Source of the DNA: Pseudofrankia saprophytica
Lineage (GTDB): Bacteria > Actinomycetota > Actinomycetes > Frankiales > Frankiaceae
Direction: 5' to 3'
Assembly: GCF_000235425.2 (NCBI RefSeq)
Contig: NZ_KI912266.1
Coordinates: forward strand, 3,100-67,099
Length of the DNA stretch: 64,000 nucleotides
Shown: positions 5,379 to 7,961 of the stretch, in pieces
Layout: each line of letters begins with the position of its first letter
Numbering within the stretch: position 1 is the stretch's first letter
The notes under the pieces: model-generated
What the model was told of the DNA's origin: nothing
The model's input: only the letters and a program-made list of their open reading frames with translations
Database searches by the model: none
Made by a program: the position numbers and the translations under genes

Positions 5379-7961
5379 GTGCCGGATCGGCGCGCACGCG
5401 GGGCGGGAGACGGACGTGACACAGCGATGACCGGTGACGCTGGCCCGACGCCAGGCGCACCGGGCAGGCCGGCCCCAGGCCCCGGGGAGGCCTCGAGGCC
5501 GGGTGCGGCCAGCCCGCACCTGCCGTCCACCCCCAGCCCAGGCGCCGCGGTCGCGCCGCCGCCGGGCGGCCGGGACGGACGAGCCGGCCGGGATGATGGA
5601 CGAGCTGGCCGGGATGGACGAGGCGGGCGCAGCGGCGACACCCAGCCGGGTTTCGGCACCCAGAGCGGCGCGACCGGGGCGGGCCGGCTGATCGCCGGTC
5701 GTTACCTGCTGCTGCACGCGCTGGGACGCGGCGGGATGGGCACCGTCTGGCTGGCCCATGACACCCTGCTCGGCGTCGACCGGGCACTCAAGGAGATCCG
5801 TTTCGGCGACGACCCGACCGAGGCCGACCGGCACGACCGCGCCGAGCGGGCCCGCCGGGAGGCACGCGCGGCCGCCCGGCTCGCCGGGCACCCCGGTGTC
5901 GTCGTCGTGCACGACCTGGTCGAGGAGCCGGACGCGCCCTGGATCGTCATGGAGCTGCTCGCGGCGTCCCGCTCCCTCGACCAGGTGATCCGCCAGGACG
6001 GGACGCTCTCCCCGTCGGTCGCCGCCCGCGTCGGGCTGGCCGTGGTGGACGCGCTCGACCACGGGCACCGGCACGACGTCCTGCACCGCGACGTCAAGCC
6101 GGCCAACGTGCTCATCACCGCCGACGGCCGGGTCAAGCTCGCCGACTTCGGTATCGCCACCTACCTCGACCGGGCGCCGCTGACCCAGGCCACCTCGATC
6201 TCGGGCACCCCCGTCTACATGGCGCCCGAGCGGCTACGCAAGGAGAAGGCCGGCCCCGCCAGCGACCTGTTCTCCCTCGGCGCCACGCTCTACGCCGCCG
6301 TCGAGGGGCGGCCCCCGTTCCCGACCCCGACCGACGCGGTCCGCTACGCCTTCAACGCCCAGTTCGCGCCGCCACGCCCCGGCAACGCCGGCCCGCTCGC
6401 CCCGGTGCTCGATGGCCTGATGACGCACGACCCGCGGGCCCGCCTGACCGCGGGCTCCGCCGCTCGGATGCTGCGCGACCTCGCCGGCGACGCCCGGGCA
6501 CCCGGGCCGGCTCCGGAGGCGACGACGGCGTTCCTGCCGCCGCTCTCCGCCGGCAGCGGCACCGGCGGCCTGTGGGCCGTGAGCACGCCGGCGGAGTCGG
6601 CGACCGCCAGGCCAGGCCCACCACGTCCGGCACCACCGCACCCGGCACCACCACACCCAGCGCAGCCCCGGCCAGCGCAGCCCCGGCCGGGGCAATCCCG
6701 GCCGGCACAGCCCGGGCCGGTGCCATCCCGGCCGGCGCCACCCGCCCCGTCACCACCCGGCCCGGCACCGCAGCCGCCAGCCGGGTTCCAGTGGCATCCG
6801 CCGGCCGGTCCCGGCTGGGCGGCGGACCGGGCCGAGGCCGCGTTCCCGTCCGCGGACTCGGCGCGCCGGGCCAGGCGGCGCAGCCTCACCCGGCGTGGCC
6901 TGATCGCCGCCGGGGTGGCACTCGGCGTCGCCGGCGGTGGCACGGCGTTCGCGATCAGCCGCCGCCGGCACGGCGACCAGCGGACCGCCGGTGGCCCGAC
7001 GCCGGGCGGCACGTCCCAGCTCGCGGACGGGACGATCCCCGCCGAGCTGAGGATGCAGCTGTCCTGGACGCCGGACGTGGAGTTCGCCGGCTGCTTCTTC
7101 GCCGACTCCCGTGGCTACTACCGCGACGCCGGCTTCAGGACCGCCAGGCTGCTGCCCGGTGGGCCCGGCGCGCTCGGCGCCGAGGAGGCCGTGACCACCG
7201 GCAGGGCGCTGCTCGGCTTCAGCGCCGTCGACGTGCTCGCCCGCGAGATCATCCGTGGCACCCCGGCGCGCGCCGTCGGCGCCCTCTACCAGCGCTATCC
7301 CTGGGTGATCGCGTCGCCCGGCGGCGCGCCGCTGGACTCGCCGGCCAAGCTCATCGGCAAGCGGATCTGGGTGGACAAGGGCGCCGGAGAGATCTGGGAC
7401 ACGTTTCTCGCCGCCAACAACATCAGCGTGGACAGGGTGACCCAGGTCAGCGACGGGTCGCCGGACGAGCTGCTCGCCGCCGGCAGGATCGACGGCCTGC
7501 TCTCGCACGTCTTCGACATCGCGCTGCGGCTGCGCCTCGCCGGCGTCGAGATCGCCACGTTCCTGCTGGCCGACCACGGCTACCCGATCGTGTCGTCGGT
7601 GTACGTCGCCTCGGTCGAGGCCATCACCCACAACCGGGCCGCGGTCAGGGCGGCGCTCACCGCGGAGATCCGCGGCTGGCGCGACAACGTCGCGAGCCCC
7701 GAGGCCGGCGCACGACTGACGGTGACGAAGTACGCCCCCGAGCTGGACGAGCGAACCCAGCTCGCGATGAACCAGATCCAGAACACACTGATCGTCAGTG
7801 ACGACACCCGTCGCGACGGCCTGCTCATCGTCACGCCCAGCCTCGCCGAGAAGAACGTGCGCGCCCTGCTCAGCGCCGGCTACCGCGTCAGCGTCGACGA
7901 CCTGTTCGACATGTCCCTGCTCGAAGAGGTCTACCGAGACAACCCCTCGCTACTGCGCTGA
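5379..7961 (+). CDS. transmembrane Ser/Thr protein kinase with extracellular NMT1/THI5-like solute-binding domain
   Basis: An 860-residue fusion receptor. Residues 108-370 form a Hanks-type kinase: glycine loop GRGGMGTVW (116-124), ATP-anchoring Lys138, catalytic HRDVKPANV (236-244), DFG 256-258, and activation loop to SGTPVYMAPERL. Residues ~375-480 are a Pro-rich linker with short PAPPHPAQP-like repeats. A single membrane segment spans about 506-527, preceded by RRRSLTRR. Residues ~555-860 match ABC-type NMT1/THI5-like binding proteins (LSWTPDVEFAGCFFADSRGYY, GFSAVDVLAREI, LIGKRIWVDKG). The binding fold is therefore placed outside the cell as a sensor. Known actinobacterial kinases more often carry PASTA or other sensor domains. 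The start is uncertain: GTG 5379 or ATG 5427, both with weak ribosome sites. It lies among hopanoid genes and converges with ispH. Confidence 0.9.
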   Translation: MPDRRARGAGDGRDTAMTGDAGPTPGAPGRPAPGPGEASRPGAASPHLPSTPSPGAAVAPPPGGRDGRAGRDDGRAGRDGRGGRSGDTQPGFGTQSGATGAGRLIAGRYLLLHALGRGGMGTVWLAHDTLLGVDRALKEIRFGDDPTEADRHDRAERARREARAAARLAGHPGVVVVHDLVEEPDAPWIVMELLAASRSLDQVIRQDGTLSPSVAARVGLAVVDALDHGHRHDVLHRDVKPANVLITADGRVKLADFGIATYLDRAPLTQATSISGTPVYMAPERLRKEKAGPASDLFSLGATLYAAVEGRPPFPTPTDAVRYAFNAQFAPPRPGNAGPLAPVLDGLMTHDPRARLTAGSAARMLRDLAGDARAPGPAPEATTAFLPPLSAGSGTGGLWAVSTPAESATARPGPPRPAPPHPAPPHPAQPRPAQPRPGQSRPAQPGPVPSRPAPPAPSPPGPAPQPPAGFQWHPPAGPGWAADRAEAAFPSADSARRARRRSLTRRGLIAAGVALGVAGGGTAFAISRRRHGDQRTAGGPTPGGTSQLADGTIPAELRMQLSWTPDVEFAGCFFADSRGYYRDAGFRTARLLPGGPGALGAEEAVTTGRALLGFSAVDVLAREIIRGTPARAVGALYQRYPWVIASPGGAPLDSPAKLIGKRIWVDKGAGEIWDTFLAANNISVDRVTQVSDGSPDELLAAGRIDGLLSHVFDIALRLRLAGVEIATFLLADHGYPIVSSVYVASVEAITHNRAAVRAALTAEIRGWRDNVASPEAGARLTVTKYAPELDERTQLAMNQIQNTLIVSDDTRRDGLLIVTPSLAEKNVRALLSAGYRVSVDDLFDMSLLEEVYRDNPSLLR

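Follow-up and report, generated by a model that had tools for sequence, protein, structure and literature searches.

A single intact gene in the window (the whole 64,000-nucleotide stretch of Pseudofrankia saprophytica DNA analyzed here) carries a Ser/Thr kinase domain and an NMT1/THI5-type solute-binding domain. The organism is a soil-dwelling relative of the nitrogen-fixing Frankia. We propose, with a probability of roughly 0.6, that its product is a single-pass receptor kinase with the NMT1/THI5 domain outside the cell as a ligand sensor, that the fusion had a single origin, and that its binding cleft has diverged. The N-terminal kinase would be cytosolic, the Pro-rich linker would serve as a tether, and a weakly hydrophobic twin-arginine segment would anchor the receptor in the membrane. 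The outside NMT1/THI5-type (Venus-flytrap) domain would bind a small, probably nitrogenous heterocyclic ligand, and this binding would alter how the receptor pairs or is oriented, thereby changing the autophosphorylation of the kinase. We infer this topology, ligand class and activation, and any target, from the evidence below. The features of the gene are as follows.

5379..7961, + strand: kinase-NMT1 gene, 860 aa, Ser/Thr kinase with NMT1/THI5-type ectodomain, GTG start
5709..6458, + strand: Hanks kinase domain, residues 111-360, PF00069, catalytic motifs present
6492..6878, + strand: variable Pro-rich linker, residues ~372-500, indels among orthologues
6891..6959, + strand: membrane segment, residues ~505-527, candidate Tat-like signal anchor
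7035..7958, + strand: NMT1/THI5-type binding domain, 308 aa, type II periplasmic-binding fold

One Intact Gene Encodes the Kinase and the NMT1/THI5 Domain

The open reading frame at 5379-7961 comprises 860 uninterrupted codons. A second possible start is Met17 at 5427; codons 1-22 showed only synonymous differences among the three Pseudofrankia copies compared, which mildly favors the GTG start. A frameshift or an assembly join of two genes, which the initial annotation had named as a finding that would overturn its reading, was ruled out by orthologues with the same layout in two genera. Among the three Pseudofrankia copies, the dN/dS values were 0.10-0.16 for the kinase domain, 0.32-0.40 for the ectodomain and 0.42-0.58 for the Pro-rich linker, showing that both domains are constrained, under purifying selection in Pseudofrankia.

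The complete Hanks kinase and the Pro-rich linker of the initial annotation were both borne out. The Pkinase model (PF00069) matched residues 111-360 over its curated cut-off with an E value of 2.4e-45, and K138, HRD (236-238), DFG (256-258) and APE (282-284) were invariant in an alignment of six full-length sequences; by profile and motifs, the protein is thus classified as a Hanks-type Ser/Thr kinase. The model of the PknB/Stk1 PASTA class (NF033483) scored 207.6 bits against the 450 needed, with a match restricted to residues 102-318, and no PASTA domain was found in the protein among Pfam matches up to E 0.1. The NMT1 model (PF09084) matched residues 568-776 (E 2.7e-22; 80.2 bits, with the cut-off at 20.5), in agreement with the NMT1/THI5-like domain of about 300 residues noted initially.

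The Ectodomain Has a Type II Periplasmic-Binding Fold

The full-length AlphaFold model had a pLDDT of 36, and that of the ectodomain had a pLDDT of 95.1. The top PDB matches of the ectodomain model were the thiamin-bound solute-binding protein (SBP) 4nmy (Z 30.7) and the FAMP-binding ThiY, 3ix1 (Z 29.4), followed by Thi5 entries (Z 23.9-26.3) and then by sulfonate, PQQ, bicarbonate and nitrate SBPs. Although ThiY, 4nmy and Thi5 were the best fold matches, they were 16-19% identical to the ectodomain, and the alignments covered the SBP domain only. These matches to thiamin, FAMP and Thi5 binders suggest, at the level of the model, a small N-heterocyclic ligand. The Thi5 HMP synthase carries a Cys-rich CCCFC motif as its signature. 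The aligned Thi13/Thi5 chains read CCxFC, the A3 consensus had no Cys there, and the window protein read LLADHGYPIVSSVY at this place; judging from this alignment, the ectodomain does not appear to be a Thi5 HMP synthase.

The Fusion Is Shared by Two Genera and Probably Arose Once

The initial annotation had suggested a search for the same architecture in other genomes, and this search succeeded. Within the genus, the ectodomain was matched in all eight Pseudofrankia genomes and the fused form was present in three of them (G000, the present genome, G005 and G001), with 91% (G005) and 89% (G001) identity to the copy of G000. In a family search of 35 genomes, the fused form was also found in four of five Protofrankia-group genomes: in three of these, HRDVKP was in frame with the ectodomain, and in the fourth copy (G032) a run of N lay between the kinase and the ectodomain. 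The fifth Protofrankia genome (G034, 87% complete) gave no ectodomain match at E <= 1e-60. At the same threshold, which can miss distant independent fusions, 50 of the 393 genomes in a class-wide search had the domain, and no kinase-NMT1 fusion was seen in these 393 genomes beyond Pseudofrankia and Protofrankia. Elsewhere, frames of at least 700 aa (G225, G254 and a second copy in G002) and longish frames in G382, G246 and G226 were without the HRD motif; for all other frames, length was the sole criterion, which would miss copies split by assembly gaps.

In a tree of 56 SBP domains, a single branch (support 100/97) separated the seven fused ectodomains from all the others, with a long-branch warning for both fused groups. 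Further, the kinase gene lay between hpnH and the hpnG-like/ispH gene in both genera; in some Protofrankia loci, extra genes separated the kinase from ispH. This conserved site provided independent support for a single origin. In the kinase-less genomes G002, G004 and G006, the HxlR and ispH genes adjoined, with 183, 191 and 175 bp between the alignment ends, respectively, and in kinase-less G007 the hpnH-to-ispH distance was 545 bp; the hpnH-ispH site of G003 was not in one piece. Given this patchy presence in Pseudofrankia, either several lineages lost the kinase gene or a few acquired it. These sequence comparisons would be best explained by a single fusion event, either in a common ancestor of the two genera or followed by transfer of the gene from one genus to the other.

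The Ligand Site Probably Differs from That of the Nearest Importer SBPs

The nearest free relative of the ectodomain in the genome was an importer SBP (G000:C1:8178140-8179057), with 37% identity over the whole domain. This urease-adjacent class (L002/L012) belongs to the same family, and in Frankiaceae it shared 37-42% identity with the ectodomain over its length; its members differ from the fused copies in being Tat-type lipoproteins of an ABC operon, with no kinase and with other residues at the predicted cleft positions. The gene group (SBP, ATPase, two permeases and an adenine-deaminase-like gene) faced ureC in all eight Pseudofrankia genomes, although the match to the adenine deaminase model was below its NCBI cut-off.

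L065:2406-11435: importer gene group, counterparts in 8/8 Pseudofrankia genomes

The kinase and the free SBP lay on one contig in G005, with a spacing of about 20 kb. In G000 the spacing would also be about 20 kb, provided that contig C1 is circular, and in G001 the two genes were on separate contigs. No free SBP of the urease-adjacent class was found in the five Protofrankia genomes at E <= 1e-60 (completeness 81-100%), suggesting that the receptor does not need the urease-adjacent importer. Plasmid-borne relatives (~35% identity) were located among phospholipid-type and glycosyltransferase genes (two of three records annotated). With a urease/adenine-deaminase context in one case and a phospholipid/glycosyltransferase context in the other, the neighborhood does not fix the ligand. 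No riboswitch was detected at the Rfam gathering score in six sources. The three matches obtained were to the 5'ureB sRNA (L065:9878-10173 on the - strand, L067:11891-12186 and L068:13070-13365), on the strand opposite the ureC-like gene.

The kinase may have been joined to an exported importer SBP of this urease-adjacent class, and the cleft would have diverged after the fusion, so that the ligand would probably differ from that of the importer. Among the 166 columns conserved at 90% or more in 26 free SBPs, the seven fused copies all kept 61, and another 39 were lost from both fused groups. Many of the losses clustered at ectodomain residues 12-14, 47-52, 62-71, 114-119, 139-146 and 155-164, which, from the fold, are probably cleft loops. 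At some lost or nearby sites, the replacements were common to both genera (E71, W90, R110, G116 and D161). These data suggest an altered ligand site, not the importer's own, with which the fused copies would probably read another ligand. The predicted cleft segments differed even between the Pseudofrankia and Protofrankia copies, and the ligand may accordingly differ or be lost.

The loss of the 39 conserved positions, mostly in predicted cleft loops, would also be expected if the binding domain were a degenerate SBP that serves as a docking or clamp module, through which the kinase reads contact with an importer or another envelope protein. We consider this unlikely, because the derived residues common to both groups and the purifying selection on the Pseudofrankia ectodomain suggest a site that was changed rather than abandoned.

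The Membrane Segment Resembles a Tat Signal in Part

The initial annotation had placed one transmembrane helix between the domains. A segment was indeed found there, at residues ~505-527, opening with an invariant R505 R506 x L508 in the six aligned full-length sequences, but its hydrophobicity was weak, with a best 19-residue Kyte-Doolittle mean of 1.89 in the window protein and 1.46-1.89 in the seven fused copies, which are not independent of each other. The 10 Mb genome (G000) holds 102 Peripla_BP_6 matches and 63 kinase-domain matches at E <= 1e-20, one of the latter being the present gene. From 29 other kinase loci, 28 frames were extracted and 24 were measured, four kinases without a segment above 1.4 being omitted; the values were 1.94-3.32 (n=24), all higher than those of the fused copies, so that a stable membrane span is not certain.

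In contrast, the Tat-type signals of free SBPs, at 1.21-1.84, were near the fused segments in hydrophobicity. A twin-Arg signal with a lipobox, of the Tat lipoprotein type, was recognized by pattern in 24 of 25 free class members; the exception, L023, missed the lipobox pattern though reading LVAC and was omitted from the signal profile. Compared with these signals, the fused segment retained the twin Arg and the Leu, whereas the lipobox Cys was gone. Alignments to the whole-length SBP profile extended into the membrane segment in all seven fused copies. With a signal-only profile of 30 positions, the full-sequence scores of the fused copies were -0.1 bits or less, against 6.3 for the best of the 24 kinases. 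By best single stretch, the three Pseudofrankia copies scored 4.9, 4.5 and 3.7, with large bias terms, against 4.9 for the top control kinase and 2.9 for the next, and the Protofrankia copies scored low. These mixed scores do not demonstrate homology of the segment to the free Tat signals, and the Tat idea is put forward as a hypothesis. SRRxL also preceded the membrane segment in at least two other kinases (L198 and L209). The segment of L209 (G000:C1:4887189-4887950 and downstream) starts SRRRLL, and only one of the 24 measured was less hydrophobic; it is possibly a further Tat-like anchor. The L209 sensor resembles a PQQ-type propeller by eye, as the sensor types of all kinases other than L201 were judged.

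These resemblances may reflect the reuse of a Tat signal as the membrane segment. In its full form, which we regard as possible but doubtful, the idea is that the Tat signal of an importer SBP became an internal anchor behind a 500-residue cytosolic kinase, that the pre-folded domain is exported by Tat, and that a nucleobase- or vitamin-like ligand is read via the NMT1/THI5 domain.

Two further explanations concern the fate of the C-terminal domain. The A-x-A sequence is a signal peptidase cleavage motif. All seven copies contain a similar [AGV]-[FW]-A sequence (AFA, GWA, AWA or VWA) after the hydrophobic stretch, and a cut behind the Tat-like segment would free the SBP from the kinase; with Arg-rich residues close behind the putative site, and with the lipobox Cys of the free relatives gone, so that a freed SBP would leave the membrane, such cleavage is improbable. 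We give a similarly small chance to a cytosolic C-terminal domain that, in a Thi5-like manner, would bind a metabolite and thereby regulate a soluble or peripherally bound kinase. The low hydrophobicity of the segment relative to the 24 other kinases would fit this, as would yeast Thi5, an intracellular enzyme with the same fold, but the close free relatives carry export signals and lipoboxes, and the Arg-rich flank before the segment agrees with an N-terminus inside the cell, even if further Arg residues come after it. The location of the C-terminal domain outside the cell, as in the single-pass receptor proposed here, is inferred from these features.

The Neighboring Genes Do Not Point to Hopanoid Control

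The genes of the window that bear on the regulation and ligand of the receptor are as follows.

3230..4231, - strand: hpnH (adenosyl-hopene transferase), TIGR03470 over cut-off, flank kept in both genera
4790..5335, + strand: HxlR-family regulator, 43 bp upstream of the kinase, same strand
7976..9712, - strand: hpnG-like phosphorylase and ispH in one frame, convergent with the kinase, start tentative
9715..11907, - strand: squalene-hopene cyclase
26784..27938, - strand: SBP of a pyrimidine-linked ABC importer, distant relative (24% identity) within the same Pfam family

The HxlR gene adjoined the kinase in Pseudofrankia but not in the Protofrankia loci examined, suggesting that a common operon would at best be lineage-specific. 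The gap between the two genes (5336-5378) was strongly conserved in three genomes and contains an imperfect inverted repeat, GGGAT...ATCCC, which is perhaps an operator. On the other side, the match of the 7976-9712 frame to the HpnG model (TIGR03468) was below its cut-off. This one-frame hpnG-like/ispH gene adjoins the squalene-hopene cyclase gene, and the remaining Pseudofrankia and Protofrankia loci that were searched gave matches to it too.

From the location of the gene, the initial annotation had suggested control of the hopanoid pathway. Four kinase-less Pseudofrankia genomes (G002, G004, G006 and G007) keep these hopanoid genes, and such control is thus unsupported; the conserved hopanoid-side position in two genera is explained by shared ancestry. 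The initial annotation had also assigned to the ectodomain the fold of the 26784 lipoprotein, which is right as far as the Pfam family goes, but the identity was only 24% (over 269 columns) and the urease-adjacent SBP was closer. The further suggestion of a related ligand was not supported, since many class-conserved positions were altered in the fused copies and no free class SBP was found in Protofrankia. A receptor that both shares its ligand, or reads a similar one, with the 26784 importer and controls hopanoid synthesis is therefore highly improbable, even with the common Pfam family and a site flanked by hpnH and hpnG/ispH in both genera, given the diverged predicted cleft positions and the four kinase-less genomes that retain the hopanoid genes.

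Relation to Known Kinase-SBP Systems

By its domains, both encoded in one intact gene, the protein belongs to the kinase-SBP fusion receptor type. A second kinase-SBP fusion was found in the same genome, L201 (G000:C2:1092202-1092909 and downstream), with an SBP_bac_5 domain. As in the present protein, a single frame encodes a kinase and an importer-type SBP, separated by a membrane segment; L201 differs in its peptide-type SBP family (PF00496, against NMT1) and in its strongly hydrophobic segment (2.84, against at most 1.89).

Kinases joined to an SBP in one chain have been reported since 2005: Krupa and Srinivasan (2005, PMC1262709) tabulated a Streptomyces coelicolor kinase with a Glu/Gln solute-binding domain (gi|21223285) and a Nostoc kinase with an ANF receptor. 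Like the present protein, both combine a Ser/Thr kinase and a periplasmic-binding-protein-type domain, but of other SBP types, and the term NMT1 is absent from the main text of that paper (PMC1262709). In mycobacteria, an outside SBP has been proposed to control an inside Ser/Thr kinase in the GlnH-GlnX-PknG system (PMC6069109); there, an amino-acid SBP and three proteins are involved, in contrast to the one chain of the present receptor. In the open-literature search, no published description of an NMT1-kinase fusion was found among the matches listed, and the NMT1/THI5 sensor is the part to which this applies. There is an NCBI product name "bifunctional serine/threonine-protein kinase/ABC transporter substrate-binding protein".

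The importer-type fold of the sensor, with its high-confidence model, makes direct ligand screening possible, and the seven orthologues, together with close relatives without the gene, represent natural controls. A Tat-dependent receptor kinase, if true, would have an unusual export topology.
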